NCBI GenBank assembly: GCA_938015805.1
Contig: CALLXF010000006.1
Coordinates: forward strand, 1 to 64,000
Reading direction: 5' to 3'
Origin: an uncultured Saprospiraceae bacterium
Lineage (GTDB): Bacteria > Bacteroidota > Bacteroidia > Chitinophagales > Saprospiraceae
Length of the DNA: 64,000 nucleotides
The position numbers were made by a program, and so were the translations under genes. Below the pieces are notes generated by a model that ran no database searches, was not told the origin of the DNA, and saw only the letters and a list, made by a program, of their open reading frames with translations. Positions 12,082-62,809 of this stretch are shown here, one piece after another. Position 1 is the stretch's first letter; every line of letters begins with the position of its first letter.

Positions 12082-13317
12082 TCAATTAGGATAATACCTC
12101 AGTTCGTTACAATTAGTTTTGACTAAATATTTTTGAGCCATTTCTTGGATATCTTCTTTAGTTATGGCGTTGTAAATTTCTACTTGTTTATTGATGAGAT
12201 CTAAATGTCCGATGTGCTCGTAATAGGCAAGGTTCATCGCTTTGTTTAAAATATTTACATCCGCAAAAGCAATACTACTCTCGTTTTTATTTTTTAATTT
12301 CTGTAATTCCTCATCTGTAATTCCATTCTGCTTAACCTCTTCTAGTTCTTTCCACACTTCCTCTAAACCTTGTTCTAAAGTATAATCTGGCATCGGTTTT
12401 CCCTCAACTATGATTAAGCCCGGGTCGACAGTTCCTGTGATATATGCATCTATACTAGAAAAAATTTGCCGCTGTTTACAAAGCCTCTGATAAAACCGAG
12501 AAGATCTACCGTTAGAAAAAATATCCGATAATAAATCGCATGCTACATAGTCTTTATGATTACGACCACACATATGGAATCCCATGTAAAATGCATTTAC
12601 TGGAATATTTCCTGACACTTCTGATTTTCTAAAAGCTCGTTGCTCTTGTTCGGTCTTGATAGGTTGTCTTATTACTTGCCCTCTTTCTATATCTCCAAAC
12701 CATTTCTGAGTTAGTGATTTGGCTTTCGCCAATGATATATTTCCCGACAATACAAGGATGGCATTATTAGGTCTATAAAAGTTATAGAAAAAAGATTTTA
12801 CGTCTTCTAAATTTGCTTTCTCGACATGAGCCGGAACTTTACCTATCGTAGGCCATTGATAACTGTGATGCGTATATGCAAGTTTGCTCAAATGATGCCA
12901 TACATCTCCATAAGGTCGATTTAAACAGGTTTCTTTAAACTCCTCAACTACTACCTTTTTCTGTACGTCTAATGACTCTTGGGAAAAATTTAGCTTATTC
13001 ATCCGATCAGATTCTAACCAGAATATAGTTTCTATATTTTCTGCTGGAACGACATCGTAATAGTTAGTGATATCACTATTAGTAAATGCATTGTTTTCTC
13101 CGCCGGCCATCTGTATGGGATCATCAAAATCAGGTACATTCTCTGACCCTCCAAACATCAAATGCTCAAACAAATGAGCAAATCCCGTTTTATCAGGGTG
13201 CTCATCTTTACTCCCGACTTCATATAAAATATTAAGCGCTACTAGCGGCGAACTAACATCCTCATGAACAATCACCCTCAAACCGTTCTCTAACTCAAAT
13301 CGATCATACTTTATCAT
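12082..13317 (-). CDS. M16 family (insulinase-like) metallopeptidase
   Basis: HLFEH (HxxEH) zinc motif in GFAHLFEHLMFGGS. Confidence 0.95.
   Translation of the reverse strand: MIKYDRFELENGLRVIVHEDVSSPLVALNILYEVGSKDEHPDKTGFAHLFEHLMFGGSENVPDFDDPIQMAGGENNAFTNSDITNYYDVVPAENIETIFWLESDRMNKLNFSQESLDVQKKVVVEEFKETCLNRPYGDVWHHLSKLAYTHHSYQWPTIGKVPAHVEKANLEDVKSFFYNFYRPNNAILVLSGNISLAKAKSLTQKWFGDIERGQVIRQPIKTEQEQRAFRKSEVSGNIPVNAFYMGFHMCGRNHKDYVACDLLSDIFSNGRSSRFYQRLCKQRQIFSSIDAYITGTVDPGLIIVEGKPMPDYTLEQGLEEVWKELEEVKQNGITDEELQKLKNKNESSIAFADVNILNKAMNLAYYEHIGHLDLINKQVEIYNAITKEDIQEMAQKYLVKTNCNELRYYPN
12719..12732 (-). repeat. Intragenic dyad repeat copy (TTGGCGAAAGCCAA on the minus strand)
   Basis: Minus strand TCATTGGCGAAAGCCAAATC, 19/20 identical to the copy at 18155. 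Confidence 0.6.
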
Positions 13318-13395
13318 GCATTAAAGATATGAACATTGTAAATTGGGCTTTAATTATATTTACATTTTATAACATAACCTTTAAAATAAAAAACC

Positions 13396-13875
13396 TTGCC
13401 TAAAAAACATATTGAACTAACTGATGCTCAGTATAAAACACTAATAAAACTGGCTTTTTTAGGAGAGTGGGTTCTTAATGCTCATAATGTAGAATCTAAA
13501 TACCCAAAAGAGCAACAGGTCCTTAACCATCTCTTATCAAAATTTAAAACCTTCAACGCTGAGGAATTAGTACATGAAGTTGATGAAGACGAGGATTACG
13601 AAGTTGAAGATGAGGTAGTTATGGGTTACTTGGAACAGTTAATAGAATTTAGAGAAGATACTTTCTGGGAACTACTCGTCAATAAACTCGTAGGTCGAGA
13701 TCTCATAGAGATACTACTAGCCAAGGATCCAGAAGCTCTCAAAAACTTTAGTGAAGAAGAAAGAGAAGCAATGATTTACAAATTAGAGAAATTTTACAAA
13801 AAAGAATTTGACACTGCAGGGCTAGAAACTTTACGAGTGGTAAATGAGGATAATGTAGATCCAAGATTAAACTAA
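13396..13875 (+). CDS. Conserved hypothetical acidic protein, apparent TTG start
   Basis: 159-aa ORF; sequence at 13396 is ttg cct aaa aaa cat; next in-frame ATG is far downstream. Confidence 0.75.
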   Translation: MPKKHIELTDAQYKTLIKLAFLGEWVLNAHNVESKYPKEQQVLNHLLSKFKTFNAEELVHEVDEDEDYEVEDEVVMGYLEQLIEFREDTFWELLVNKLVGRDLIEILLAKDPEALKNFSEEEREAMIYKLEKFYKKEFDTAGLETLRVVNEDNVDPRLN

Positions 13876-15423: not shown

Positions 15424-16150
15424 AGCCTTTGGTTTTTATAAAATCATGAATTTTAGGAATCCATTGTATTGCATAAGGCGTATCCGTATGTAAGCAAATG
15501 GTCTCATGAGATAAGTCATAAATATCTGACAACTCAGTACTTACTTTTTGCTGAAGCAATAACTCTAATTGTGATAATACTTGCTCAATTTTATTATAAA
15601 CCGCTCCAGAAATCTCTCTACTTGCAAGTGTCCCTTCTTTGGTATATCGTCTATCCATAAAAGACTCTGGAACTACTGTAAACATTTGATCACTTACCCT
15701 ATCCGTTACCTGACTATGAGCCAGAGAATAAATTTTGAGATTTTGATCTACCATCGCTATAGATTCTAAAAAAATATCTGCTACTTCTGATCGATGATAT
15801 AGATCATTATATAGAGCCCCATGAGGCTTTACATGATGTAATACCCCACCCTCGTTTTCTACAATTCTTTTTATATAAATCACCTGATCCGCAATAGTGC
15901 CTCTTAAATCCATAGGATCCATATCCATAGACTTACGTCCAAAATTAAGGCGATCAGGATAAGATGGATGAGCACCGATCTTTAGACCATGAGCTATGGC
16001 TGCTCTTACCGTTTTTAGAATTTTAGCAGGTTGTCCAGCGTGATCCCCGCAGCAGATATTACAAGATGAGATATAAGGCATAAAGGCAATATCATCCACA
16101 GCGTCTAACTCTGCCATGTCACAATTTATATCTATTGTTTTTCCAATCAC
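15410..16150 (-). CDS. pxpA: 5-oxoprolinase subunit PxpA (LamB/YcsF family)
   Basis: DINCDMAELDAVDDIAFMPYISSCNICCGDHAGQPAKILKTVRAAIAHGLKIGAHPSYPD. Confidence 0.95.
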   Translation of the reverse strand: MIGKTIDINCDMAELDAVDDIAFMPYISSCNICCGDHAGQPAKILKTVRAAIAHGLKIGAHPSYPDRLNFGRKSMDMDPMDLRGTIADQVIYIKRIVENEGGVLHHVKPHGALYNDLYHRSEVADIFLESIAMVDQNLKIYSLAHSQVTDRVSDQMFTVVPESFMDRRYTKEGTLASREISGAVYNKIEQVLSQLELLLQQKVSTELSDIYDLSHETICLHTDTPYAIQWIPKIHDFIKTKGFEIT

Positions 16151-17370: not shown

Positions 17371-18587
17371 TATTTAGCCGATATGTTTGTAGAATTGCTT
17401 TTAGACTGCAGAGCATATAATGCAAAAGAAGCTAACCAATGCTCGCCCATATAATCTCCATCCACTATCTTATTGATGGAATAATTATAATGTTCGTCTG
17501 CAATTTTTACAATCTCTGGGTTCCCCTCACTTACAGAATATAAACACCATGCCCTTGAAAAATTAACACCATCTAGATGCACAAGATGTCCATCAGATCG
17601 ATCTTTTACATCTGCTGGAGTGATATCAATATCCCCTTTTTGTAAGCCTTGTAAAAATTCGTTTTTCCATATTGCAAATTCGTCTTTAGATAGTACACGT
17701 CTCATAATGTCTAACTCTTCCAAGCAAGGAGATAAGAAATCATAACCACTCGGTTCCCAGCTAATCGGGCAACCTTTATCCTCAAAATAAAAATCTCTTG
17801 CTCTGGATTCTATCATATTTTGCAAATCGGTATCTCCTACGGTTACCGCATAATCATGAGCAAATGTCAATCCAAAAGCAGTATTAGAATGCGTCCCGAC
17901 TCTGATAGGGAAAACCAACTTTGGGAGGTAGCTCTGGTATTTTTCTGACAGTACTCTATTTAGTGGCTCTAGCGTTTTATACCATTTTTTTGCATCAGGA
18001 TCATCCCACGTATATAGTTCTGCTGATAATTTTAAAAGCCATGCCCATCCGTATGTCCGTTCGTAATTTTTAGTGTAATCATTTAAGGAAAAATAAGCAA
18101 TCTCTTGATCTATATTTTCTTTAGTGAGGTTACTATCTATAGCTCTACGTATCTCATTGGCGGAAGCCAAATCAGGAAACTGTTTTAACAAATAAATCAA
18201 AGACCAATGCCCATGCACAGCAGAATGCCAGTCAAAACAACCGTAGAATGCCGGATGATGCTCTTGGGGCATCGCTAGATCTGATGAGTCTTGTATTACG
18301 ATTCCCGACTTATAAGGCAAAGGATTTTGGATACATTTTAAAGGTAGTGTAGCAAGATGAGCGGCCTGATTTTTAGTCAGCTCGACCTCTTGCCACATCT
18401 TAGAGTTCTTAGATCCATTAGTCATAGCCATGGACTCATTATCATTTTTGTCACCAGTACCCGTTTCAGTAGTATCTATTCCGACAGTGGATATCACCTC
18501 TTCAGATACGTTTAATAAAGCCTTACTTAATAAAAAAAGTATACAGAGGAAAAAGATGAGAATAACAATTTTGATTTTAGAATCCAT
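17370..18587 (-). CDS. DUF2891-like protein with N-terminal membrane anchor
   Basis: CIQNPLPYKSGIVIQDSSDLAMPQEHHPAFYGCFDWHSAVHGHWSLIYLLKQFPDL matches DUF2891 as remembered; TAATG overlap with the Nramp gene. Confidence 0.85.
   Translation of the reverse strand: MDSKIKIVILIFFLCILFLLSKALLNVSEEVISTVGIDTTETGTGDKNDNESMAMTNGSKNSKMWQEVELTKNQAAHLATLPLKCIQNPLPYKSGIVIQDSSDLAMPQEHHPAFYGCFDWHSAVHGHWSLIYLLKQFPDLASANEIRRAIDSNLTKENIDQEIAYFSLNDYTKNYERTYGWAWLLKLSAELYTWDDPDAKKWYKTLEPLNRVLSEKYQSYLPKLVFPIRVGTHSNTAFGLTFAHDYAVTVGDTDLQNMIESRARDFYFEDKGCPISWEPSGYDFLSPCLEELDIMRRVLSKDEFAIWKNEFLQGLQKGDIDITPADVKDRSDGHLVHLDGVNFSRAWCLYSVSEGNPEIVKIADEHYNYSINKIVDGDYMGEHWLASFALYALQSKSNSTNISAK
18155..18168 (+). repeat. Intragenic dyad repeat copy (CATTGGCGGAAGCC, followed by AAATC)
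   Basis: Exact 14-mer shared with 44545 and 62662. Confidence 0.7.
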
Positions 18588-18738: not shown

Positions 18739-20637
18739 ATGAAACTAATTTTACAATTATTCTTATTTAGTTTTTTAATCGCAACGACAGTATCCGCTCA
18801 GACGGATAACACGTGGACCGGAGATGGAGATGGTATCTCATGGAATGATGCAAACAACTGGGATCTAGATGCAGTTCCTGATGACACGCATCGGGCTATT
18901 ATAAACATTGCCTCTAATGTCGATATCAGTGGCACACAAGAAGTCGATCAATTGTTTATAAATCATGACAACGCAGAAGTGCAAATCCTGTCGTCAGCAA
19001 GCCTTAACATAGATGTAAATCCGAGCTCTGTATTAGAGCTAGATCGTGGCACCTTTAAAAACTATGGCCAACTCAATATCGTGCGATATATATCAGCGTT
19101 TAACCAAGTAAATTATTTTACCAATGAATCGTCAGGAACTATCACACTTTCTAATAACGGAAACAACGGAAATGATAATCGTATAGAAATACAAAGGCTA
19201 GGTGTATTTACAAATGATGGAATTATGAACCTCGAAGGAACGGATGAAGACTACGATGTAATTTTTAACGATGGTATCTTTACAAATAACGGAGAGCTAA
19301 ATATCTCAGGAACTTTTAAAAGAGGATTTGCAAATTATATTGTAGGAGAATTTACAAACGAATCAAGTGGTGAATTAAATGCTAGTCGAGATAATGACGG
19401 AGGACCTAACGCATCTATTGTATGGAATACCTTTGAAATGGAAAATCATGGAACAATGACAATAGAGCATCCTATTGGACAAGACATGGAAGGTATAGGT
19501 CTTTATTTAGAAATCGATGACCCTTTCGAAAATACAGGTATCATTACTATTTCAGGAATGTCTAACTATGGGATATGGTATAATACTAACTGGAATAATA
19601 CTGGAGAGATACACTTAGGAACAGACAACGGAAATATGATCGGCAACTCCGACAATTTTCCTCGAGAACTAAACAATACCAGTGGATTAATAACAGGCTC
19701 AGGAGCCATTAGATGTCATGATGGTCTTGTAGGAGGTACAATAGAAATAGGTAGTTCGCCAGGCCAGGTAACTTTCCGAGTTACCCAAGACCTAACCTCG
19801 GTTTACACCCCATTAGAGATCGCAGGAACAGATGGACCAGGAGAAGCAAACGGTCACGATGTGATTTACGGAGAAAGATTTAATTCATTTTTTGATCTAG
19901 TAGATATAGATATATCGGATGCTGATTTAGACATCGAATTACTAGGAGGATTTGAGCCAGTTTATGGAGACGAATTTTTGATTCTTTCTACCGATGGTGA
20001 GCTCACAGGACAATATGGTATTATAGGTTTTCCTTTTTTATCAGATCCTAATTTATACTGGGAATTAGAATATGACTATGTAGATGATGAGGTTACCCTG
20101 GTTGTTAATGCATTTGTAGTTCCAGTGAAACTTACGGACTTTACCGCTGTCGAGAGAGATCAGGAACACCTTTTAGAATGGTCTACAGCATCAGAAATAA
20201 ATAGCAGCCATTTTGAATTACAAAGTAGCCATGATCATACCCTCTGGAATACTATAGGAACAGTAAGTGCTATGGGCAACTCTAGTCAAACAAAAAAATA
20301 CTCATTTTCTCATATACCGATAGTAAGCCATACTCATCATTATTATAGACTAAAAATGATCGATCTGGATGGGACATACGAATATTCTGATATTGCATCG
20401 ATCAGATCGTCTATATCAAAAGAGAAGTTATCCGTGAGCCCTAATCCATTTACAAATCAGATAACACTAAATGAAGCATCGGCTTTTTCTGTGATAGATA
20501 GTTATGGAAAAATAGTTTACACCACGCAAAATAATCAATCCCAAATAGATCTATCATTTCTGCCAGCAGGACTATATTATCTTAAATTAAAAGAAAAATC
20601 AGGAGACTACGCAACTATAAAATTGATTAAAATCTAA
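18739..20637 (+). CDS. Secreted protein with T9SS type A C-terminal sorting domain
   Basis: Signal peptide; repeats of NNG/TNDG beta-helix style; C-terminus SVSPNPFTNQITLNEASAF...GLYYLKLKEKSGDYATIKLIKI. Confidence 0.9.
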   Translation: MKLILQLFLFSFLIATTVSAQTDNTWTGDGDGISWNDANNWDLDAVPDDTHRAIINIASNVDISGTQEVDQLFINHDNAEVQILSSASLNIDVNPSSVLELDRGTFKNYGQLNIVRYISAFNQVNYFTNESSGTITLSNNGNNGNDNRIEIQRLGVFTNDGIMNLEGTDEDYDVIFNDGIFTNNGELNISGTFKRGFANYIVGEFTNESSGELNASRDNDGGPNASIVWNTFEMENHGTMTIEHPIGQDMEGIGLYLEIDDPFENTGIITISGMSNYGIWYNTNWNNTGEIHLGTDNGNMIGNSDNFPRELNNTSGLITGSGAIRCHDGLVGGTIEIGSSPGQVTFRVTQDLTSVYTPLEIAGTDGPGEANGHDVIYGERFNSFFDLVDIDISDADLDIELLGGFEPVYGDEFLILSTDGELTGQYGIIGFPFLSDPNLYWELEYDYVDDEVTLVVNAFVVPVKLTDFTAVERDQEHLLEWSTASEINSSHFELQSSHDHTLWNTIGTVSAMGNSSQTKKYSFSHIPIVSHTHHYYRLKMIDLDGTYEYSDIASIRSSISKEKLSVSPNPFTNQITLNEASAFSVIDSYGKIVYTTQNNQSQIDLSFLPAGLYYLKLKEKSGDYATIKLIKI

Positions 20638-20738: not shown

Positions 20739-21698
20739 CTATCCATAAATGTGATTTATTATGGATTTGGCTTGATTCCTAGAGTTTTCTATAAAATACT
20801 TAGACGTGTGTAATCCACCTAAAACTGTTCCTGCTAGGTAAATATTTTTCTGATTACTCTCAAAGGTATCAAGATTAAAAACAGGTGTTTTCTTTTCGTC
20901 GCTTTGGATATCTATACCGATCTGGCTAAGTAAATCGTAATCAGGCTGATATCCTGTCATTGCTAGTACATAATCATTATCTATTGTTATGTTGCCTTCT
21001 GGCGAATGTATAATTACTTCCGATTCTGATATACTTTCTAACGTAGAAGAGAAATACGCTTTAATAGATCCTTCTTGGATGCGATTTTGGATATTGGGTA
21101 AGATCCAATATTTAACTTTTTCATATAACTGAGCTTGTCTTACGACCATCGTTACCTCTGCTCCTTTTTGCCAGGTTTCCAAAGCCACATCACATGCAGA
21201 ATTTGCACCTCCCACGACTACCACTTTTTGGTTTATATAATGATGAGCTTCGTCATAATAGTGTTTTACTTTTGATAAATCCTCTCCTGGAATATTCATC
21301 TTATTGGGTTTATCATAAAATCCTGTGCTGACGATTATATATTTACAAGTATACGTTTCCTTATCCGTTGTGATTTTAAATCCTTGGTTTATTTTCTCAA
21401 CAGACATTACCATTCGCCGAAAGGCAATCTGCAATTTATAATGATCATAAAGTCTGCGATAGTATTCTAATGCTTCCTTACGTGTCGGTTTATCGGTATG
21501 TGAGATAAACGGAATCTCTCCAATTTCTAAATTGACGGAAGTCGAAAAAAAAGTCATATTAGATGGAAAGTTAAATAATGAATTTACGAGCACTCCTTTC
21601 TCTAGGATCAAGTAATCCATTCCTTTTTTAGTGGCTTCTATAGCACAGTTTATCCCCGTAGACCCTCCACCTATAATAATTAGATCGCGATGTATCAT
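20739..21698 (-). CDS. ypdA: YpdA-like putative bacillithiol disulfide reductase (FAD/NADPH)
   Basis: DLIIIGGGSTGINCAIEATKKGMDYLILEKG; VVVVGGANSACDVALE; FFSTSVNLEIGEIPF characteristic of YpdA. Confidence 0.85.
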   Translation of the reverse strand: MIHRDLIIIGGGSTGINCAIEATKKGMDYLILEKGVLVNSLFNFPSNMTFFSTSVNLEIGEIPFISHTDKPTRKEALEYYRRLYDHYKLQIAFRRMVMSVEKINQGFKITTDKETYTCKYIIVSTGFYDKPNKMNIPGEDLSKVKHYYDEAHHYINQKVVVVGGANSACDVALETWQKGAEVTMVVRQAQLYEKVKYWILPNIQNRIQEGSIKAYFSSTLESISESEVIIHSPEGNITIDNDYVLAMTGYQPDYDLLSQIGIDIQSDEKKTPVFNLDTFESNQKNIYLAGTVLGGLHTSKYFIENSRNQAKSIINHIYG

Positions 21699-31177: not shown

Positions 31178-32014
31178 TTACTTAGAAAAATCTATAAAAT
31201 TACTAGGATCTACAGAATTACCATTATACCATAACTCAAAATGCAAGTGAGGCCCACTAGTTAGTCTTCCAGTATTTCCAATTATCGCAATAGATTCTCC
31301 TTGTTTTATTCGATCTCCAGTCTCCTTTAGCAATCGATCATTATGCTTATAAACAGAGATAATATTATCTGCATGCTGGACAGTAATAGAATGACCCGTT
31401 TCTATATTCCAGTCAGATGACACTACTATACCGTCTAATATACTGGTAATAGGAGATCCTTCTGGGGCTATGATATCTACACCTATGTGATCAGGTACGC
31501 TTAAATAACCCGAACTGATGGCCCCTTTTAAAGGTGCATTGAAATATACATGACTCAGGATATTACTCGATAAGTTAGTCATAGTGGATCCACCCGCTCC
31601 GTCTCTTCCTTCCGATATTGCAGTTTGCGTACCAGTCATATCTAAAGTATCAGGATGGATGTTTTTAGGAATCTCACCTCCACTGACCATTTCTTTTAAG
31701 CCATCGATGTATACATTTTGGGTTTCTATAATACCCTCCAGGTCTTCTACCTCATTTTTTAGATTGAGAAATTCCATACTATTATTGACATTACCGTATC
31801 CTGGCACCCACCTTTTAACTGGAGTAAAAATAATAAGAGAGGTAATAATGGCAGCAGTAAGTAAAAAAGCAGAACAAATAGTGATGTACACACTTAAGAG
31901 ACTAAGATTAAAAGAACGCACCTCACTGAGCGTTTCTTCATCTAAAACCACCATTCTGTACTGATCTTTTAGTTTATCCATAAAAGATCGGCTTTTTTTT
32001 ACCTCCTCAGACAT
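31178..32014 (-). CDS. M23 family metallopeptidase with N-terminal TM and coiled coil
   Basis: HIGVDIIAPEGSPITSILDGIVVSS...GPHLHFELW. Confidence 0.95.
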   Translation of the reverse strand: MSEEVKKSRSFMDKLKDQYRMVVLDEETLSEVRSFNLSLLSVYITICSAFLLTAAIITSLIIFTPVKRWVPGYGNVNNSMEFLNLKNEVEDLEGIIETQNVYIDGLKEMVSGGEIPKNIHPDTLDMTGTQTAISEGRDGAGGSTMTNLSSNILSHVYFNAPLKGAISSGYLSVPDHIGVDIIAPEGSPITSILDGIVVSSDWNIETGHSITVQHADNIISVYKHNDRLLKETGDRIKQGESIAIIGNTGRLTSGPHLHFELWYNGNSVDPSNFIDFSK

Positions 32015-32149
32015 TAGCTAAGTATGAAAAAATTAAAATAAATTTGCACTAAAATAGTTATATAAGTTGTTAGAAACCCCTTTTAATAACTAGATATCAG
32101 TTTTTATCCACAAAGCAGTTTCTCAATTTACTTACAGTAAAATAAATAA

Positions 32150-35257: not shown

Positions 35258-35303
35258 TAAATTATCACGATATCCCATCAATAAAAGTGATGGAATAGAA
35301 ATA

Positions 35304-35339
35304 AAAAAAGCATCTATCCGAAAGTTGATGCTTTTTTTT
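35304..35339 (+). terminator. Rho-independent terminator downstream of the SprE/PorW-like gene
   Basis: aaaaaaagcatc-tatccgaaagtt-gatgctttttttt. Confidence 0.85.
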
Positions 35340-35379
35340 GTACCCACTATCAAAGTTGCAGAATCCTAATTCTAAAAAA

Positions 35380-35754
35380 CTACTTACTCTGTTGTACCAT
35401 AAAGTAAGTCTCAAAAATGGTATAAGCTAAGTAAGAAACAAGAAAAAGTAGAATAAAAAAATTATCAGATGGTGAAGCATAATTAAAATATAATCCTACT
35501 ACGAGGAAACTGATAAAAATCTTTAGTATCGTATTAAATATAATCAACCTGATATACTGATATTTATCCGCGGAGGCTGCTGCCCTACTACCTAAGAAAT
35601 ACATGAATACCGAAATAGCAATGAAAGTCACTATGCCTATTAGTGAGATGTTCCAGTCCGCCTTATCACCAAGTAGTAAGTTTATGAGGATAAGTAAACC
35701 CGCAGTAGCAAAAGTGGTTATAGATAGTCCAATTAAAAATTTAGCTCTGGTCAT
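35380..35754 (-). CDS. Four-TM hypothetical membrane protein (ATP synthase-locus-associated type)
   Basis: Hydrophobic ORF overlapping the AtpZ-like gene. Confidence 0.7.
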   Translation of the reverse strand: MTRAKFLIGLSITTFATAGLLILINLLLGDKADWNISLIGIVTFIAISVFMYFLGSRAAASADKYQYIRLIIFNTILKIFISFLVVGLYFNYASPSDNFFILLFLVSYLAYTIFETYFMVQQSK

Positions 35755-35971: not shown

Positions 35972-35985
35972 CTAAAGTGATAACC

Positions 35986-37760: not shown

Positions 37761-38858
37761 TTATGACTTTTTATTATTTGATTTCCATTCTGCCCCAAAT
37801 TCTTCCACTAACAATACATCATACTTATCAGCAGTTTCAAAGAGCTGTTTAAACAACTCTTTTGCTGTATTAATTTTAAAATATTGGTCGTAAATAAGTA
37901 GCGATAAAATAATAGCTTGGTCCTTTACACTAAAGGTAAGACCCTCTAAGTTAAAATTTTGTTGCAATAAAAATGTATAAATAGGTTTAATATCTTTTTT
38001 TGGTAATTTACAAAGGAATGCATCTCCTACGATCAGACCTGTTTTCTCATAGTACGATACCTGTATATCTGCACTTCCGTGAATGATCTGCCAGTTACTA
38101 GGTCCTTTACGGCTTAGGTTAATATCATAGCCTAGATCCACTAGTAAACTTTCTATACTCTTATTAATACCTACAGGCTCGTAAGTTTCTAAGTCAGCGA
38201 TCATAGTTATCTCTGAACCACAGATGTTACAGTAACCAGAATCTACAGTATTTTCAAAAACAACATTAGAACAAGAGTTACATCTTACCCCTGCTACTCC
38301 TTTACCTTCCTTAAAATCTAAAATTGCCTCGTGCAATGTTTTTACGGGTAAAGAAAACCCAATATTATTTCCGTTGCGGATGATAAACGTATTTACTCCT
38401 ATAATATCTCCATGGAAATCGATCAGCGGTCCACCACTATTCCCAGGATTTAAAGCAGCGTCATGCTGTAAATACGTTATGTTTTTTTGGACATGTTCTA
38501 AACTGGATAGTATTCCCTGAGTAGCCGTAAATTTTAACCCAAATGGGTGACCTACTGCCACCACAGTATCCCCTTCTTGAAAGATCTTTTTTGAACTTAA
38601 TTTTAGATCACTCATTTTATGAGTAGAGGGTGAAGACAGAAAAGCTAAATCATATTTAGGATCTACGTATAATACAGATACCATCTGCTTTTCCATCGAT
38701 TTTCCATTAATGACTACATTTTTATTATCACGGACTACATGTTCGTTAGTAATAATTATATCATACTCATATAGATAAAAACCCGTACCCGTGCTATATG
38801 GCGTGGCTATCTGGATAACTGCATTTCTATACTGGTCTATAATTTTCTGAATATCCAT
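37761..38858 (-). CDS. Trypsin-like serine protease - zinc ribbon - YbjN-like C-terminal domain
   Basis: Triad ITNEHVV / YDLAFLS / NPGNSGGPL; VRCNSCSN...YCNICGS zinc ribbon; C-terminal chaperone-like domain (inferred). Confidence 0.85.
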   Translation of the reverse strand: MDIQKIIDQYRNAVIQIATPYSTGTGFYLYEYDIIITNEHVVRDNKNVVINGKSMEKQMVSVLYVDPKYDLAFLSSPSTHKMSDLKLSSKKIFQEGDTVVAVGHPFGLKFTATQGILSSLEHVQKNITYLQHDAALNPGNSGGPLIDFHGDIIGVNTFIIRNGNNIGFSLPVKTLHEAILDFKEGKGVAGVRCNSCSNVVFENTVDSGYCNICGSEITMIADLETYEPVGINKSIESLLVDLGYDINLSRKGPSNWQIIHGSADIQVSYYEKTGLIVGDAFLCKLPKKDIKPIYTFLLQQNFNLEGLTFSVKDQAIILSLLIYDQYFKINTAKELFKQLFETADKYDVLLVEEFGAEWKSNNKKS

Positions 38859-40268: not shown

Positions 40269-41219
40269 ATGAAATTCCGAACCATCCTAAAACAAGCATC
40301 CTCTCCGATAGATATTAACTATCAGTCTAAAGTCTTATTTATGGGTAGTTGCTTTGCCCAGAATATCGGTAAAGCAATGGGCGATCGTAAATTTATGACC
40401 TCCATAAATCCACTCGGGATCAGTTATAACCCTATATCACTGGCAAAAAATATTGCGACCATAACAGAATGTAAATCCCCAGATCCAGAAGAGGTCTATT
40501 CTAATGAGAGCATCCATTTCCATTATGATTTCCATGGAATTAATAACGCTTTATCTCGTACATCTTTTGTAGAAAAAATCGATGATAAAATAAAAGCTGG
40601 TTATGAATTTGTAAAAACAACAGACATCTTATTTATTAGTCTCGGAACAGCACATGTTTTTAGTCATAAGGATCATGGTGTGGTGAATAACTGCCATAAA
40701 ATGCCTAATGACTTATTTACTAGAAGGCTTTTAAAAGTAGAAGAAATAGTTTCCGCTTTACAGCGAATAATAACCCAGCTAACTACTGTAAATTATGGCG
40801 TAAAAATAGTGTTTACGGTAAGTCCTATACGACATATACGAGATGGTTTAGTAGCAGATCGTAGAAGTAAGTCTATGCTCATAGCTGCATTGACGCAAGT
40901 CATAAATGACCAAGACGTTTTTTACTTCCCTTCTTACGAATTGCTTATAGATGATCTAAGGGATTATCGTTTTTACAAAGCTGATATGATCCATCCTAAT
41001 GATCAAGCAATAGGCTACATCTGGGAATATTTTTCTGAGAGTTATTTTTCTACTGATACCATAGAACTCATCCGCAAAGTGGACAAAATAAATAGCATGC
41101 TATCTCATAGGCAGATATCTCATTCTACTGATCAGGCGAGAATATTAAAAGAAAAAATTAAAACAGCTGTTTCACAACTGACTAACCATATCCCAGAGGA
41201 AAAATGGCAATTGGAATAA
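40269..41219 (+). CDS. GSCFA domain-containing protein
   Basis: VLFMGSCFAQNIGKAMGDRKF; TVSPIRHIRDG. Confidence 0.95.
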   Translation: MKFRTILKQASSPIDINYQSKVLFMGSCFAQNIGKAMGDRKFMTSINPLGISYNPISLAKNIATITECKSPDPEEVYSNESIHFHYDFHGINNALSRTSFVEKIDDKIKAGYEFVKTTDILFISLGTAHVFSHKDHGVVNNCHKMPNDLFTRRLLKVEEIVSALQRIITQLTTVNYGVKIVFTVSPIRHIRDGLVADRRSKSMLIAALTQVINDQDVFYFPSYELLIDDLRDYRFYKADMIHPNDQAIGYIWEYFSESYFSTDTIELIRKVDKINSMLSHRQISHSTDQARILKEKIKTAVSQLTNHIPEEKWQLE

Positions 41220-44401: not shown

Positions 44402-45730
44402 TCAGAATGATACATTTAGTCCTATCCTCGACGAACTATAATTTACTTTATCAGCATTTATAACTCCTAAGATATTATCAGTTGTTGCGATTAATTGCAC
44501 CGGACCTACATTTACTATAGCACCTAGTCCAGCTACTGGATTTCCATTGGCGGAAGCCAAAGTTAAATTTACCATGTGTTTACTAAAACGATAACTTCCA
44601 TTTAAACCAAAAGAAGATACTCCTGAAACATTATATTGATTAAGATGAAAGAATCCACCAATATTTATTTTATCAGAGAAATCATAGTCCACTCCTATTA
44701 AAAACTTTTTAAATAACTGGGTGCTGTACTCTTTTTGCTCCTTAGTAAAAGTAAGTACCTGATACAAAGAATCCTCTACTACTATATCCTGGTCATCTTC
44801 AAAAAATTCTAATAAATCTATACCTTCAAAATTGGTCTGCTCAGCAGAACTATACATAAAAGTGCTATCAGCATTCCATGTTATACTTCCGATATCTAAT
44901 GCCGCGATCTGATAAGAAAACTTATCGCCGAGTGTTCCACTAATCCCAAGGTCAAACGCGAATCCCATATTTTTTCCTACCTGGAATAATTTTACTGGAT
45001 TATAATCCAAAGAAAAATCTCCTAATCCATTGTACTCAAAAGTTCCAGCTGTTAAAATATCTATATCTGTATCTACTGTAAGTTGGTAAATATCAGGATC
45101 CGTAAATAAATCTAGTTTACCGTTTTGTATACTTAGATCTTCGATACCTGATAGAAGTTTTACCCTCGCACCGATATTAATATTGCCTAACTGGCGAGCA
45201 TAACCCAGAGATAGTTCAGTATATGATCGAGTGGCTATATCTAATCCAAGGTTCATCGTTTCGCCGATATACGCAGCATTTCCTATATGATAGAGCTCTA
45301 TTAAGTCTTTACTATATTGTACGTCACTGATCACTCTCATTCCGTAACCTACACTGAACATTCCTTTTCCTGTCTTCCAATCTACTCCTAATAAAGGAAC
45401 AGAAAACTCGACTCCTATCCCGTTTTCTTCTCCAAAATCATCTATCACATTTGTAAAATCTAATCTACTTACGCCATTAGATGTTTTTCTAAAATAGTCT
45501 CCGATTACTGGTCCGTCTTGAATAAATGTTCCTGCAATACCAGGTAATACTACTGTAAGTCCGGTATCTTGTTTTATGTACGATGGATCTATAGGATTAG
45601 ACTGTCTTAGGTTTTCCATACCGATCCACTGTAGATCCTGAGCAGATAAGTGGGTAGAAAAAATACTAATCGTAATGAGTATTAAAAATAACGCGTTACT
45701 TAATACATACGTCAAAGCACTTTTAATCAT
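44402..45730 (-). CDS. DUF5723-like outer membrane protein
   Basis: Signal peptide; GIGVEFSVPLLGVDWKTGKGMFSVGYGMR; C-terminal aromatic beta strand. Confidence 0.75.
   Translation of the reverse strand: MIKSALTYVLSNALFLILITISIFSTHLSAQDLQWIGMENLRQSNPIDPSYIKQDTGLTVVLPGIAGTFIQDGPVIGDYFRKTSNGVSRLDFTNVIDDFGEENGIGVEFSVPLLGVDWKTGKGMFSVGYGMRVISDVQYSKDLIELYHIGNAAYIGETMNLGLDIATRSYTELSLGYARQLGNINIGARVKLLSGIEDLSIQNGKLDLFTDPDIYQLTVDTDIDILTAGTFEYNGLGDFSLDYNPVKLFQVGKNMGFAFDLGISGTLGDKFSYQIAALDIGSITWNADSTFMYSSAEQTNFEGIDLLEFFEDDQDIVVEDSLYQVLTFTKEQKEYSTQLFKKFLIGVDYDFSDKINIGGFFHLNQYNVSGVSSFGLNGSYRFSKHMVNLTLASANGNPVAGLGAIVNVGPVQLIATTDNILGVINADKVNYSSSRIGLNVSF
44545..44558 (+). repeat. Intragenic dyad repeat copy (CATTGGCGGAAGCC, followed by AAAG)
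   Basis: 17-mer CATTGGCGGAAGCCAAA identical to 18155 copy. Confidence 0.7.
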
Positions 45731-47316: not shown

Positions 47317-48729
47317 TCAGTTGATCTCTATTTCTTGACCTAAGTCTGGTATTTTAACGTTTGAGAACCCCTTTGTGCCTAGATATTTTTTAAATTTCTT
47401 TTGAACATCATATTCTCCATGAACCAGATACATTTCTTTGATCCCCTTTTTAATCGGATTTAGGAAATCGACTATCTCCTTCCGATCAGCATGAGCAGAG
47501 AAAGAATGCATCGTTTTTATCTGAGCCTTGATTTTTTTCCACTCTCCAAAAAGCTTAATCTCTTCTGCCCCAGATCTAATTATTCCGCCAGCTGTATTAG
47601 GAGCACAGTAGCCCACAATAAGAACAGTCGCTTTAGGATTTTCTAAATTATTAAACAAATGATGTCTTATCCTTCCTGCATTCATCATACCAGACGAGCT
47701 GATAATAATACACGGTTTTTTAGTTTGATTTAGAGCTTTGGATTCTTCCACGCTACGAACATAATGCAAGTCATTAAACCCAAAAGGATTATCATCGATA
47801 AGTAAATACTCATGTAATGCATCATCAAAACATTCTGGATGAGCTCCGAATACTTGAGTTGCATTTACAGAGAGTGGACTATCTACGTATACTGGAATTT
47901 TGGGCAACAGACCCTTAGTCTCTAACTTATCTAGAAGGTATACAATCTCCTGTGTACGACCTACGCTAAAAGCAGGGATCAGCAATTTACCTTGATTTTC
48001 GACGCAAGTCTCTTTAATAATTTCTAAAAATTTATCCGTCTGTTCTGGATTAGACTCATGCTCTTTATCTCCATAAGTAGACTCACAGATGAGGTAATCC
48101 GTTTTTTCCATAAGCTGCGGATCCTTTAAGATCGGACGATCAGGTCTTCCGATATCTCCAGAAAATCCGACACGGAGTGTCTTTCCGTTTTCTTTTATTT
48201 TAAGATTTACACTGGAAGATCCTAAGAGATGTCCCGCATCATTAAATCGTACAGATACTCTATCATTTATATCATGCCATTTATTATAGGAGTAGGTCTG
48301 AAAAAGCACCATTGTAGGCACTACATGCTTGCTCCCGTATATCGGTTGTCTAAACGGTTTACGTTTTTTCTTTTTACGTTTTGCTTGCTTTTTATTAAAC
48401 CACTCTGCTTCTCTCTCTTGGATTTTTGCACTATCTAATAACATAATTGCACATAAACTACGCGTAGCATGTGTAGAGTGTATACATCCATTAAAACCAT
48501 CTTTTACGAGCTGAGGCACTCGACCAGTATGATCGATATGTGCATGAGATAAAATCAGACAGTCGATCTCCTTAGGATCATAATACCATTTGTTATTACT
48601 AATCCAGTCCGCTTTTCCACCACCCTGATATAAGCCACAATCTAATAATATTTTATATCCATCATCTAAGGTTATCAAATGCGAACTACCTGTTACATTC
48701 TTTGCTGCTCCACAAAATTTAATCTTCAT
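47317..48729 (-). CDS. MBL-fold / beta-CASP ribonuclease-like metallo-hydrolase
   Basis: SHAHIDHTG zinc motif; SSSGMMNAGRIRHHL; TMHSFSAHADRKEI. Confidence 0.94.
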   Translation of the reverse strand: MKIKFCGAAKNVTGSSHLITLDDGYKILLDCGLYQGGGKADWISNNKWYYDPKEIDCLILSHAHIDHTGRVPQLVKDGFNGCIHSTHATRSLCAIMLLDSAKIQEREAEWFNKKQAKRKKKKRKPFRQPIYGSKHVVPTMVLFQTYSYNKWHDINDRVSVRFNDAGHLLGSSSVNLKIKENGKTLRVGFSGDIGRPDRPILKDPQLMEKTDYLICESTYGDKEHESNPEQTDKFLEIIKETCVENQGKLLIPAFSVGRTQEIVYLLDKLETKGLLPKIPVYVDSPLSVNATQVFGAHPECFDDALHEYLLIDDNPFGFNDLHYVRSVEESKALNQTKKPCIIISSSGMMNAGRIRHHLFNNLENPKATVLIVGYCAPNTAGGIIRSGAEEIKLFGEWKKIKAQIKTMHSFSAHADRKEIVDFLNPIKKGIKEMYLVHGEYDVQKKFKKYLGTKGFSNVKIPDLGQEIEIN

Positions 48730-49617: not shown

Positions 49618-49921
49618 TTTCTAAGTTTTTATGGTTTTATAAACTGTGTTCTAATTTTCCTTTGACTTACGTCGAATGGATCAGAGATCCTATAAAGAAG
49701 TATATCTAATTATAACGTAGAAAGCCAAAATTAATTTCACTATCATAAAGATGAAATTGAATAGCAAAGAGGTGGGTAATGATATAAATAAAAATTATTG
49801 AAAGTGAGATGCTCTTTGAAATTAGTAGTTGGATAGCATTTTTAAATCAGAAGAAGGTTACTCAAAATTCTTAATCTACTAATGGTAAGAAACAATATCA
49901 CTGGAGCTATATCAACTACTA

Positions 49922-51601
49922 CTAGTTTTCTAAAATCTTCACTTCTGTACGACGATTAAACTGGTGATCTAGATCAGTACAAGTCACTCCGTTATAGCAG
50001 TGATTACGGATCTGAGTTTCTCCTAGTCCCTGAGTCATGATGCGATCACTGGAGATTCCTTTTACCATAAGATATGATTTCGCAGATTTTGCTCTTTGTT
50101 TAGATAGTTTTAGATTGTAATTATCTTCTCCTCTACTATCGGTATGAGCGATCAGTTCTACCTTAAGACTTGGCATAGTAAGCATCGTATTATATAAAGC
50201 ATCTAACTCCTCTGCTGCACCGCTTTGGATAACCGCACTATTATACTCATAAAAAATATTATCAAAAACGATTTTTGACCCCTTGGTAGTAGGTATGATT
50301 ATCGACGGCTCTACTTTAGTCTGCTCTTTTATGGTTTGTGGTCTAGTAGAAACCACCGGTTTAGATTTCTTTAGAGGCTCTAAGCCTATAGTCCACTCCT
50401 GATCGTTCTCTAGAGGATCATAAAAAAACCTGCTTTCTTTATATTCTGGATCATCCACTACTAATACATACTTAGTATCTGTCTGCACAAAAAACCGTTG
50501 AGCACCTTTCTGATCTGTTTTAATACTAAAAGCAGTCGCATTTACATCTCTACAATTTTGGAGTATTACCTCCTGATTATACTCGGCAAGGTCATAGTCC
50601 TCTAGGTCTATGGGTATGAGTTTTAGTTCTTTTCCCACCAGGGCTTGTTGGGTAAAATTATCGATAAGCGTTACAGAAAAGGTTAAATTTTCAGGAACAG
50701 ATATTTTATTTATCGACTGATTAAATTTCATTTCATAAATATCATCCTTACCCTTTCCCGGACGTGAAGAAGAAAACAATAAATGCTGTCCTTCTTTGTC
50801 TATGGATAATCCAAAGTCGTCAAAATCTGAATTTATAGGTGTGTCAAGCTTTTTAAGATTTACAAACAACTCTCCTCTAAGCTCGGCCTCATAGATATCT
50901 AGATCATCCGATGCTTTTCTACCATCCGTCGCAAAGTATAAAAACTGATCATTATGGAAATATGGAAACCAGTCATTTTTATCTGTATTTATCTCTGGAC
51001 CTAAATTCTCAGGGCGAGTCCATGAGTCACCAGATTTATACATTACATACAGATCCATTTTACCATATCCTCCTGGCATATCTGAGGCAAAAATCATGAC
51101 TTTACCATCTTGGCTTACTGCAGGGTGACAAAAATTATGATCACCCGCGGGGAAATCTAATCGCTCTGGAATGGACCATAAACCATCTACATATTTACTA
51201 GTAAATATTTTTAGTTTTAGCGAATTATCCTGACTGTACTTTCTTTTGTTATTGGACATATTAGATTTAGTCAGGAACATGGTATTCGCTGCAAAGCAAA
51301 AAGGGCCTTCTATATAGTCGGAATTTATAGTCTCAGAAAACAAGATAGGATCACCTCCTTCCTCTATATATAAAACATCAAATTTTTGTTCCCCACGAGT
51401 AGGGTTATCTTTTTTACTACTTTTCTCAAACATCACATACGCAATACCGTCATTATATCTTACAGGAGAAAACTCATAATTTTTACTATTAAATGGTAAT
51501 CGGGAGATTCCATTATTAGCAAGTAGCGCATCCGTGATCTGACTATAAGAAACAAATGACGATCCTAGTAAAAATATAAATATGTAGTAAAACTTATACA
51601 T
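49922..51601 (-). CDS. OmpA family protein with PD40-like repeats
   Basis: AVSQDGKVMIFASDMPGGYGKMDLYVMYKSG; C-terminal VELIAHTDSRGEDNYNLKLSKQRAKSAKSYL. Confidence 0.93.
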   Translation of the reverse strand: MYKFYYIFIFLLGSSFVSYSQITDALLANNGISRLPFNSKNYEFSPVRYNDGIAYVMFEKSSKKDNPTRGEQKFDVLYIEEGGDPILFSETINSDYIEGPFCFAANTMFLTKSNMSNNKRKYSQDNSLKLKIFTSKYVDGLWSIPERLDFPAGDHNFCHPAVSQDGKVMIFASDMPGGYGKMDLYVMYKSGDSWTRPENLGPEINTDKNDWFPYFHNDQFLYFATDGRKASDDLDIYEAELRGELFVNLKKLDTPINSDFDDFGLSIDKEGQHLLFSSSRPGKGKDDIYEMKFNQSINKISVPENLTFSVTLIDNFTQQALVGKELKLIPIDLEDYDLAEYNQEVILQNCRDVNATAFSIKTDQKGAQRFFVQTDTKYVLVVDDPEYKESRFFYDPLENDQEWTIGLEPLKKSKPVVSTRPQTIKEQTKVEPSIIIPTTKGSKIVFDNIFYEYNSAVIQSGAAEELDALYNTMLTMPSLKVELIAHTDSRGEDNYNLKLSKQRAKSAKSYLMVKGISSDRIMTQGLGETQIRNHCYNGVTCTDLDHQFNRRTEVKILEN

Positions 51602-59157: not shown

Positions 59158-59177
59158 ATAAAGTTTCTATCGAGGAT

Positions 59178-60719
59178 TTATGATTCTGAAGTTTTAGATG
59201 CAAATGTTACGAGAGCATCCTTCAATCTAACTAACGTTTCCGGTTTACCCAATAGTTCCATCGTACCAAAAATATCAGGCCCTTTCATCGTACCCGTAAG
59301 AGCTACTCGCAATATGGGTAAGATCGCACCAAAGCTTAATTCCTTTTCTGCAATGTATCCTTTTATGATATTTTGAATGTTCTCTGTTGTAAAGTCATCT
59401 ATAGCTTCTAACTTATCGGCCATTGATAAGAAGTGCACATCATTTTCTAGTTTGTATTTTTTTCGTATTGTTTTTTCGTCGAAAGACTGAGGTTTGTCAA
59501 AAAAGAAATATCCATTCTTTTTAAACTCGTTTAAATTTTCTACCCTCTCCTTCATCATTCCACAGAAGAGCTTTAGGTTTTCTGGACTTACGTCCGAAAA
59601 TTGTTCTTGGATCATAGAGGCAAGCTTATCATCAGAACTAGCCATTATATACTGTTGATTATACCACTTTGCTTTTTCTATATCAAAACGGGCTCCTGAC
59701 TTAACTACTTTTTCCAAATTAAAACTTTCTATCAACTGATCTAAAGTAAAAATTTCTTGTTCAGTCCCAGGGTTCCATCCTAGAAAAGCTAGGAAATTAA
59801 TCAAGGCATCAGGTAAAAAACCATACTCTTTAAACCCTTCAAACTGTAAGTCTCCCGTCTCTGGATCATTCCAGTCCAATGGAAACACTGGAAACCCAAA
59901 TGTAGCACTATCTCGTTTACTCAGTTTTCCTTTTCCTACTGGTTTTAAAATCAAAGACAAATGAGCAAAATGAGGTGGCTCCCATCCAAAACAGCGATAC
60001 ATAAATATATGATGAGCGGTACTAGATAACCATTCTTCTCCTCTGATGACGTGAGATATTTCCATCAAATGATCATCTACGATATTAGCTAAATGGTATG
60101 TAGGCATTCCGTCTGCTTTAAGCATGACTTTATCATCCAGTAATCCTGTTTGAAAAGAAACCTCTTCTCTTACGATATCAGTAAATGTAATCGTCTCATC
60201 AGATGGCATTTTTAAACGGATGACAACATTGGCTCCAGCCAAAATCTTTTCCTCTACTTCTTCTGGACTTAAGGTCAAGCTATTTTTCATCTGACCTCTA
60301 GTTACATGATTATACTTAGCAGAATGGTTTCCTTTTTCCTCTTCCGACTTACGCATTGCATCGATATCCTCACTGGAATCAAAGGCATAGTATGCATGAC
60401 CTTGCTTTACAAGTTGTTCCGCATATTTTTTATATAATGGTTTACGATCCGACTGACGATAAGGACCATATTTTTCTTCTTTTTCTCCACCTACACCTGG
60501 ATACTCATCTGGTTCGATACCTACCCATTTTAAAGCATCCATAATGTATTGCTCCGTTCCCGGCACTTCTCTATTTTTATCTGTATCCTCTATTCTCAAA
60601 ATAAAGTCTCCCCCATTTTTACGAGCAAATAAATAATCATATAAAGCGGTACGCAGACCACCGATATTTAATGGTCCGGTCGGGCTAGGTGCAAATCTTA
60701 CTCTTACTCTTTTATCCAT
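59178..60719 (-). CDS. gltX: Glutamate--tRNA ligase
   Basis: RVRFAPSPTGPLNIGGLRTALYDYLFARKNGG; GKLSKRDSATFGFPVFPLDW. Confidence 0.96.
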   Translation of the reverse strand: MDKRVRVRFAPSPTGPLNIGGLRTALYDYLFARKNGGDFILRIEDTDKNREVPGTEQYIMDALKWVGIEPDEYPGVGGEKEEKYGPYRQSDRKPLYKKYAEQLVKQGHAYYAFDSSEDIDAMRKSEEEKGNHSAKYNHVTRGQMKNSLTLSPEEVEEKILAGANVVIRLKMPSDETITFTDIVREEVSFQTGLLDDKVMLKADGMPTYHLANIVDDHLMEISHVIRGEEWLSSTAHHIFMYRCFGWEPPHFAHLSLILKPVGKGKLSKRDSATFGFPVFPLDWNDPETGDLQFEGFKEYGFLPDALINFLAFLGWNPGTEQEIFTLDQLIESFNLEKVVKSGARFDIEKAKWYNQQYIMASSDDKLASMIQEQFSDVSPENLKLFCGMMKERVENLNEFKKNGYFFFDKPQSFDEKTIRKKYKLENDVHFLSMADKLEAIDDFTTENIQNIIKGYIAEKELSFGAILPILRVALTGTMKGPDIFGTMELLGKPETLVRLKDALVTFASKTSES

Positions 60720-60875
60720 ATATTGTTATTTATAGCTTTTATGATGTCTAAACTGCGACTTATAGTCACAAAGTCAGTCTTAAAAGCAACTAATATTTTT
60801 AGTGTATCGTTTTATCTTTAAAGTAAATAAGGTGCAAAGATATAATCCATATACTTATCACAGTGAATCTGTAAA

Positions 60876-61499
60876 ATGTATCTGACAAAAACTCCAGACT
60901 TCGTGCAAAATATGTTTCCAAATCTCATTTGGAAAATGGAAAATCGGGGACATAAAAATCTCTATCTCACCTTTGATGATGGACCTATTCCTGAGATTAC
61001 ACCTTGGGTTCTGGATGAATTAGAAAAATATAATGCCAAGGCGACTTTCTTTTGTGTCGGAGAAAATGTAAAAAAACATCGAGCCATTTATGACAGGATC
61101 TCTAGCATGGGTCATGTAGTCGGTAATCATACCTATAATCATCTTTCTGGATGGAGTACATCTAATATGGATTACTTTAGAAATGTGAGATACTGCGATG
61201 ATCTAATAGATAGTAAACTGTTCCGTCCACCATACGGAAGGCTTAAAAATAAACAAGCAATTTATCTCAGTCGTAAATATAAAGTCGTGATGTGGGATGT
61301 GCTGAGCGGAGATTTTGACCCTAAACTAAGCAGAGAAGATTGCCTGCGAAATGTGATTTCTAAATCCACCTCTGGATCTATTATCGTTTTCCATGATAGC
61401 CTTAAAGCAAAAGATAAACTGGAATATGTGTTGCCTAAAGTGCTTAAGCATTTTTCTAAGCAAGGATATACTTTTAAAAATTTAGAAGCATTAGTTTAA
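60876..61499 (+). CDS. Polysaccharide deacetylase family protein
   Basis: LTFDDGPIPEITPWVLDELEKYNAKATFFCVGEN; GNHTYNHLSGW; FRPPYGR. Confidence 0.94.
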   Translation: MYLTKTPDFVQNMFPNLIWKMENRGHKNLYLTFDDGPIPEITPWVLDELEKYNAKATFFCVGENVKKHRAIYDRISSMGHVVGNHTYNHLSGWSTSNMDYFRNVRYCDDLIDSKLFRPPYGRLKNKQAIYLSRKYKVVMWDVLSGDFDPKLSREDCLRNVISKSTSGSIIVFHDSLKAKDKLEYVLPKVLKHFSKQGYTFKNLEALV

Positions 61500-61591
61500 C
61501 CCCGAAATGTAATGATGTGGACTGTAAAGAAGTGGAAATTAAGATTTAATGATTCTATTTAGTTCTCTATTTTTGATAAATGGTCTCTCGC

Positions 61592-62809
61592 TTAAAGAAA
61601 ATCTCGCTTAATATCATAAGCTGAACCCCTGATCTCTTCTAGTATTTCTTTATCTTTTTTAAACACCATCGGCCATATAATTACACTCAGTAAATACGCT
61701 ACTCCAAAAAGATATAAAGTCGTTATCCATGAAAACGGTCCTTTCCATAAATGAGCCAAAGCATAAAATAAAAATGGAGAAAATATCATATAATGAATCT
61801 GAGTATAATTTACTCTACTACGGTTAAGATCTATACCCGCATCTACGTAATCTATTTTAGTAAAAAGTTCTTGTTTTGCTTTTTGAGACTTGGTCTGTAA
61901 TGTTGCTTTAAGTTTATATACTTCTTCTGCCAGACCTCTTACTGATGATCTGTAAATAAGGAAAAATATAATCAGTGGAATAGCTACTAGTAAATTATTA
62001 GAGTATCCATCTCGGATAAATAACCAAACTAATAAAAGGATCAGTGGGAAAGTCAAGGCATACATCAATATTCCAAAATCACGAGCATAGTTTAAATTTC
62101 TGAGTTGGTCGATCATGGTGATCACTTGTGTATTAGCCTCTGCTATCCCTTCTATATTTTCCTCTACTTCTATATCATCTGCTAATATCGCTTCTGGTCG
62201 GATGACCTGTGGGACATCGTCATTTAAAATATCCGCATTGCTATTGTTCTGAAACTTATCATTTATGGTAGGTGGGACAATCCGCTCTTCTACTTCTAAG
62301 TCCTCGTTAGTAGTATATGGATCTGGATCATCTTTTTCCTCTTCTTCTGTTGGATGATATTCTATATGTTCGAGTGTATCATCTTCTATTTCCGTCGGAT
62401 TATTCTCCTCTAATGCTTCAGTAATTTCTTGAACAGATTCGCTATGAACTAGAGCATCTGGATTTATTTCTGATTTTAGATCATCCGATCTCTCTGATAT
62501 TTTTTCTGCTGAACTCTCATTTGGATTCTCTAAGTGACTTTCTGGATTCTTCTCTTTTGATGATTTGTTTATAACTTCATTTGCTTCATCAGAGGATACG
62601 GTGTCTTTTAACTTATCACCGAGATTTTCTTCTTGTTGACTAAATAGATCACGTACTTTTTCATTGGCGGAAGCCGATACCTCCTCTGACTCTTCCTTTA
62701 GTGATTCTCTATATTCTTTAGATTTAAGACGTAGTTCCTCGGTTGTTTTTTTTAACAACGCTTCCATTTTTTCTGTGTGCTCTAGAGGATTTTTAAATCT
62801 TTCGTCCAT
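61592..62809 (-). CDS. Membrane protein with long acidic disordered N-terminal region and C-terminal TM helices
   Basis: Glu/Ser-rich N-terminal half; hydrophobic segments in C-terminal half. Confidence 0.75.
   Translation of the reverse strand: MDERFKNPLEHTEKMEALLKKTTEELRLKSKEYRESLKEESEEVSASANEKVRDLFSQQEENLGDKLKDTVSSDEANEVINKSSKEKNPESHLENPNESSAEKISERSDDLKSEINPDALVHSESVQEITEALEENNPTEIEDDTLEHIEYHPTEEEEKDDPDPYTTNEDLEVEERIVPPTINDKFQNNSNADILNDDVPQVIRPEAILADDIEVEENIEGIAEANTQVITMIDQLRNLNYARDFGILMYALTFPLILLLVWLFIRDGYSNNLLVAIPLIIFFLIYRSSVRGLAEEVYKLKATLQTKSQKAKQELFTKIDYVDAGIDLNRSRVNYTQIHYMIFSPFLFYALAHLWKGPFSWITTLYLFGVAYLLSVIIWPMVFKKDKEILEEIRGSAYDIKRDFL
62662..62675 (+). repeat. Intragenic dyad repeat copy (CATTGGCGGAAGCC, followed by GATAC)
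   Basis: Exact 14-mer shared with 18155 and 44545. Confidence 0.7.

Follow-up and report, generated by a model that had tools for sequence, protein, structure and literature searches.

The window analysed here is the stretch of 64,000 nucleotides G000:C6:1-64000, where G000 is a metagenome-assembled genome (MAG) of the Saprospiraceae, 3.59 Mb in 118 contigs; the closest GltX relatives are Saprospiraceae MAGs. It carries genes for an M16 peptidase, for DUF2891 and DUF5723 proteins, for an SBP_bac_5 protein and for GltX, and within or between them lie five exact copies of the dyad TTGGC-N4-GCCAA and 15 members of a wider family of short hairpins (Table 1). The consensus of this family is 5'-WTT(S)-NNC-GNAA-GNN-3', i.e. 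a 3-bp Watson-Crick stem with a loop of strictly 4 nt, GNAA. Genes are open reading frame (ORF) calls made in this analysis. The MAGs are incomplete and each genome was read in part.

A preliminary description of the window had reported CATTGGCGGAAGCC at 18155, 44545 and 62662, all on the plus strand, and these coordinates were confirmed, as was a minus-strand copy with one mismatch, CATTGGCGAAAGCC, at 12721-12734. The sites listed there are real and the list is incomplete, given the numbers above. Two looser relatives had also been named. One of them, TTGGCTAAAGCCGA at 33479, is present; the other, GCGGAAGCC at 41941, is present too, lacks the 3-bp stem and does not belong to the family. The GRAA variants of the loop had been noticed correctly, the loop of the family being GNAA. 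Chance is excluded, as had been argued, since the window holds five matches with at most two mismatches vs 0.05 in dinucleotide shuffles.

The excess is found throughout the genome. Summed over both strands, WTTGGCGNAAGCC occurs 295 times in G000 and its reversed control not once, and TTGGCN4GCCAA occurs 208 times vs 1 for the reversed control. When all 5-mer dyads with gaps from 0 to 15 are ranked by over-representation, TTGGC-4-GCCAA comes first (43 vs 0.1). The sites are nearly all-or-none, as 464 kb of G000 contain 43 exact and 25 one-mismatch copies, with two-mismatch copies at the control level. For the coding null, synonymous codons were shuffled in 645 ORFs (797 kb of G000) with protein and codon use kept. 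Under this null 0.3 copies of WTTGGCGNAAGCC are expected and 69 were seen; the corresponding values are 1.4 ± 1.1 and 50 for palindromes, 3.9 ± 1.8 and 131 for hairpins. The encoded peptides vary (LAKAK, LASAN, LAGAN, IGFSQ, HWRKP and others), and the palindrome lies in each of the three frames, on either strand and also between genes, with L-A-x-A-N/K preferred; nine of the 43 exact palindromes are intergenic. Neither proteins nor codon use account for the excess, in line with the earlier remark that peptide conservation does not suffice. Order-3 Markov sequences gave 0-3 hairpins, and 147, 117, 145 and 142 were observed in four carrier genomes. Pooled loci from other Bacteroidota were at the Markov background (4 vs 3-4 hairpins). 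There is roughly one hairpin per 2-5 kb, in either orientation, and the copies lie mostly within genes, as is the case for uptake sequences.

The letters of the stem vary and co-vary while just the loop and the 5' flank keep their sequence, and we therefore take the element to be a hairpin. Co-varying stems seen are GGC, GCC, GAC, CGC and TGC. Other perfect dyads are enriched (TTGAC/GTCAA, 8 vs 0.18 expected; TTGGG/CCCAA, 5 vs 0.21), and the mixed half-sites TTGGC/GTCAA, which differ inside the 3-bp stem, were not found at all, i.e. half-sites do not vary independently. In a scan of all stems that follow [AT]T[TC] and enclose a GNAA loop, GGC was seen 85 times (expected 2.9), GAC 19 times (0.57), GCC 13 times (0.23) and CGC 8 times (0.18). 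When stems with at least two G/C were considered in the same context, 159 in G000 were Watson-Crick paired vs 13.6 expected; stems with one G-T (23 vs 21.3) or A-C mismatch (26 vs 24.2) were at expectation, and no enrichment of either was seen in the other test genomes. The commonest class, GGC-GNAA-GCC, is oriented: all 87 copies (expected 0.8) have T at position -2, and the two bases on the 3' side, the right outer arm, are largely free.

The prefix is WTT abutting the stem, or with one extra C/G between, its 5' T is conserved in 99-100%, and the stems are of 3-4 bp. In form the prefix is close to WTT|S, the consensus of RuvC, a likeness that is only noted here. A strong excess is limited to 4-nt GNAA loops. 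At loop lengths of 2, 3 and 6-8 nt no clear excess was seen, at 5 nt a few loops (e.g. TTAAA) exceed expectation, and GNGA loops are absent, with no enrichment. With its co-varying stem the dyad is not a fixed word of the kind found in uptake sequences or in palindromes like HIP1 (highly iterated palindrome 1). Within the hairpin family the exact dyad is the form seen most often, and it is not a fixed palindrome. The earlier reading as a genome-wide signal at the DNA level stands, and the fixed palindromic protein site that it had assumed does not.

The family rule was refined on G000 and G070 (Saprospiraceae) and then tested on G087 and G081 (GC 47-49%), which were fetched once the rule was fixed. 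Watson-Crick stems numbered 121 vs 10.4 in G070 (GGC, CGC, GAC and GCC), 85 vs 9.4 in G087 and 143 vs 21.2 in G081. Because the genomes had been picked by GGC-stem counts, the remaining stems constitute an independent test; without GGC there were 74 in G000, 50 in G070, 45 vs 6.4 in G087 and 105 vs 17.4 in G081. The main stem is GGC in G000 and GCC in G081 (85 copies), the latter with TTT in front. Stem and flank form lineage dialects while the GNAA loop stays; the four genera agree on the hairpin rule. A congener of G000, G151 (L149-L168), uses TTTGGCTNNAGCCAAA, a dialect that is symmetric and in which GNAA loops are few; it also has a repeat of AAGGTTTAAGG. Ten copies of AAATGGTTTAAACC, a candidate iterated palindrome, were seen in 358 kb of G070 (L129-L148).

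Of the coding copies pooled over the four genera, 223 are sense and 256 antisense. The G-rich strand carries 271 of 551 copies, with no leading-strand bias. Neither the coding nor the leading strand is favoured, so the signal acts on DNA and not on transcripts. Both an mRNA element and a replication-oriented signal (Chi, KOPS) are disfavoured, as a bias is expected of them and none is seen; the Chi-like or KOPS-like role that the preliminary description had considered was rejected on this absence of skew.

Homologs were compared at 72 sites. The core was gap-free in 82 of the 88 comparisons and had a gap in 6, and its identity was 38% vs 52% overall. The sites of the window in GltX, DUF2891 and SBP5 replace variable residues without an indel. 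In the M16 gene the arms are kept in three congeners with three different loops (G000; G150, TTGGC-AAGA-GCCAA; G151, TTGGC-TCGA-GCCAA), and the site is lost in G052. At another homologous position G070 has TTGGC-GGAA-GCCAA, G000 TTGGC-TGAA-GCCAA and G151 TTGGC-TACA-GCCAA, and TTGGCGAAAGCC is present in both G070 and G151 in a protein that we take, from the peptide GPPGTGKTLLAKAVAGEA, to be FtsH. Most homologs of peptide-conserved sites use other codons. As there are nearly no indels at the sites, and arms or hairpins are retained across homologs, the copies were made and kept by substitution, and an origin by insertion was rejected.

Turnover is rapid and the distribution is patchy. Counts of WTTGGCGNAAGCC in carriers are 655 in G138, 617 in G550, 549 in G081, 546 in G618, 496 in G132, 486 in G613 and 461 in G087, in addition to G000, and near-zero sister species have 5 (G052), 35 (G065), 35 (G555) and 6 (G640). 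Within single genera the counts are 295/57/20/5 (g1), 617/35 (g65) and 486/339/35 (g70). Such patchiness fits a factor that was gained and lost, possibly via horizontal transfer. Among 395 genomes of the class only G217 stands out outside Saprospiraceae (59 vs 2). It belongs to g127, a Flavobacteriaceae-like genus that is probably Flavobacterium, in which palindrome counts are raised (G217, G487, G291) and the GNAA hairpin is found in G217 and G487; the 14 hairpins in 200 kb of G487 come from stretches partly chosen around known sites. G057 was rejected as a carrier, as its 80 copies of TTGGCN4GCCAA have random loops and there are no GNAA hairpins; palindrome counts alone therefore overstate the spread in GC-richer genomes. 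GC-rich repeats around CAGGGCCGAGCAGACCTGCGAG were observed in G057 (L169-L172). The 17-mer CATTGGCGAAAGCCAAA led to nine viral contigs, which apart from this match are not enriched in the hairpins, and carriage by phage was rejected.

Table 1. Hairpins, dyads and the related palindrome in the window (strand '.', no strand given).
Feature	Position	Strand	Context
Hairpin ATT-GGC-GAAA-GCC	12721..12733	-	M16 peptidase gene; exact dyad TTGGC-N4-GCCAA at 12719-12732
Hairpin TTTTG-GAC-GTAA-GTC	15930..15942	-	Family scan
Hairpin ATT-GGC-GGAA-GCC	18156..18168	+	Dyad 18157-18170; antisense in DUF2891 gene; substitution origin, no indel
Hairpin ATTC-GCC-GAAA-GGC	21413..21425	+	Family scan
Hairpin ATT-GAC-GGAA-GTC	21531..21543	+	Family scan
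Weaker member, stem GCT/AGC, loop GTAA	26405..26417	-	Family scan
Symmetric dyad TTGGC-ATCA-GCCAA	28543..28556	.	In SBP_bac_5 gene
Related palindrome TTGGGTTTAACCCAA	29654..29668	.	Intergenic
Hairpin ATT-CAC-GGAA-GTG	38072..38084	-	Family scan
Weaker member ATTC-GCT-GTAA-AGC-G	40755..40767	-	Family scan
Hairpin ATT-GAC-GCAA-GTC	40889..40901	+	Family scan
Hairpin ATT-GGC-GGAA-GCC	44546..44558	+	Dyad 44547-44560; antisense in DUF5723 gene
Hairpin TTTTC-GAC-GCAA-GTC	47998..48010	+	Family scan
Hairpin ATTC-GAC-GTAA-GTC	49664..49676	-	Intergenic
Weaker member ATTC-GCT-GCAA-AGC	51285..51297	+	Family scan
Hairpin TTTC-GTC-GAAA-GAC	59475..59487	+	Antisense in gltX
Symmetric dyad TTGGC-TCCA-GCCAA	60229..60242	.	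In gltX; no indel vs relatives
Hairpin ATT-GGC-GGAA-GCC-GA	62663..62675	+	Antisense in 61592-62809 gene, without Pfam match

The reading that we favour, at somewhat less than an even chance, is that the hairpin serves as a strand-neutral tag for self-recognition or processing, read by a factor as a hairpin in single-stranded DNA. The factor, perhaps horizontally acquired, would read the WTT flank and the GNAA loop by sequence and the stem by pairing. The hairpin would then tag self DNA in uptake, recombination, repair or defence, and if tagged DNA is preferred or spared, tags would accumulate in the manner of uptake sequences or Chi. On this reading, either natural selection or a self-reinforcing drive would have built the hundreds of copies and would maintain them where they stand. 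More tentative is the further step, that the hairpins, with their loop fixed and their stem free, make up a code across the whole genome that consists of DNA secondary structure and not of a word, and that a horizontally spreading self-recognition system reads them and rewrites host coding sequences in place; this may be a new class of chromosomal signal.

Several observations weigh against a self-recognition tag. No reader protein was identified. ComEC is present in 25 of 26 genomes whatever the number of tags, so competence genes do not predict tags. A convincing ATPase of a type IV pilus (T4P) or type II secretion system (T2SS; PF00437) was not seen in any of the 26 genomes. This rules out the one kind of receptor known for uptake signals, and pilus-type DNA uptake was dropped as a candidate for this reason. 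A free stem of 3 bp is weak, and the hairpin must therefore be stabilised by a protein. The symmetric TTGGCTNNAGCCAA class, dominant in G151, could equally well be a double-stranded dimer site. Finally, even spacing was hinted at (about 2 standard deviations) in G000 and G070 only and not in G087 or G081, and this idea was dropped.

The main rival, which we regard as rather unlikely, is a bias of mutation or repair without function, in which a nascent strand would fold back on itself at a very stable C(GNAA)G mini-hairpin and be corrected to a perfect stem by template switching. Strict Watson-Crick stems and strand neutrality would follow from it, and so would the indel-free block substitutions in variable protein segments and the patchiness among sister species. 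Template switching accounts for the pairing. It does not account for the 5' T, which is invariant although it need not pair, for the stem dialects, with a single stem dominant per lineage (GGC in G000, GCC in G081), or for the sites conserved across genera. Other stable loops, including those of 3 nt, are not enriched, and hairpin stability alone was thereby rejected.

Sites for a protein on duplex DNA, of the nucleoid, segregation or orphan methyltransferase type (like Noc, matS or HIP1), are an unlikely explanation. In its favour are the palindromic core with fixed 4-bp spacing, the 14-bp exact sites, which are almost all-or-none, and the symmetric dialect of G151. However, the stem co-varies, with no mixed TTGGC/GTCAA next to the 8 TTGAC/GTCAA pairs, several unrelated stems occur in one genome, and the GNAA class is asymmetric with a free right outer arm. 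A duplex-binding protein would suit the symmetric TNNA class, the dominant one in G151, more closely than it does the GNAA class.

Among stable RNA tetraloops, C(GAAA)G and C(GGAA)G are classic examples, and this match would suggest mRNA hairpins of the GNRA tetraloop type with an effect on stability, pausing or protein binding. We consider this very unlikely, as half of the copies are antisense and would give a TTNC loop in mRNA, G-U pairs are not tolerated, GNGA loops are missing and there is no Rfam match. Barely tenable is the insertion of mobile mini-elements of the type of repetitive extragenic palindromes (REP) and their RAYT transposases, which combine a tetranucleotide and a hairpin and use a single-strand transposase. 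The short 5' tag with a hairpin resembles REP, but the sites lie within genes without insertions, Y1_Tnp is lacking in G000, G151 and G138 (655 sites), and several tag-poor genomes have it; a RAYT/Y1 transposase was rejected with none in the host genome or in the richest genome scanned. Chance, codon use or peptide conservation, to which 29 of 34 coding exact dyads in one frame (L-A-x-A-(N/K)) might have pointed, is refuted by the synonymous-codon and codon-order shuffles, the intergenic copies and the Markov null.

No known signal of this kind matches the hairpin family, and no description of the motif was found in literature searches. Chi, a linear word much like an octamer, is biased to the leading strand, and Chi words are intragenic and lineage-specific. 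The hairpins share with it a similar density, intragenic position and lineage specificity, without the leading-strand bias or the linear word. REPs likewise have a short 5' tag with a hairpin in high copy, but they are longer, extragenic and dependent on a Y1 transposase, and the hairpins differ in all three respects.

The closest precedent in behaviour are the DNA uptake sequences (DUS) of Neisseriaceae and the uptake signal sequences (USS) of Pasteurellaceae. Like the hairpins, uptake sequences have hundreds of copies or more per genome, many of them intragenic (PMC3630211, PMC2346458); they lack a general bias of orientation (PMC2346458) and differ between lineages as dialects (PMC3630211). 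They are, however, fixed asymmetric words, and DUS are recognised by the pilin ComP. The hairpins have a free stem word, and their genomes encode no convincing type IV pilus ATPase. Cyanobacterial HIP1 and the alternate HIPs are, like the hairpins, highly iterated and palindromic, and rare or replaced in exceptional related genomes (PMC4390886). HIPs are fixed short words tied to methyltransferases, in contrast to the varying stems and the asymmetric GNAA centre here, and the variable stem does not agree with a HIP, a fixed word that goes with a methyltransferase. In structure the closest precedent is the target hairpin of diversity-generating retroelements (DGR). In this hairpin/cruciform downstream of variable repeats, as in the hairpins here, the pairing matters and not the sequence of the stem, and the 4-nt loop is fixed in size and sequence; the DGR loop is essential, and its consensus is GRNA, with GAAA in BPP-1 (PMC3240598). 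DGR stems are of 7-10 bp and stand beside a variable repeat. The present hairpins were not assigned to DGRs, because they have stems of 3-4 bp and are spread over hundreds of unrelated genes.

Known iterated signals (uptake sequences, Chi, HIP1) are words, whereas here a shape is conserved at the cost of the proteins that it crosses. If a reader is found, this would be a new system for telling self from non-self DNA in Bacteroidota, or a lineage-specific process that reshapes coding sequence at hundreds of sites. The contrasts within genera (295 vs 5, 617 vs 35, 486 vs 35) make the search for the factor directly feasible.

A second palindrome, TTGGGTTTAACCCAA, has at least four identical copies in 464 kb of G000 (including C6 and C8, i.e. 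L006 and L008), and in L006 it adjoins a hairpin, TTGCCTTTCGGCGA. The part of the window from 32001 to 36000 is the sole stretch with a positive GC skew (+0.05), has a strong AT skew (0.22) and coincides with a TPR protein of 1035 aa on the plus strand. The protein encoded at 18739-20637 has a C-terminal sorting domain for type IX secretion (Por_Secre_tail).

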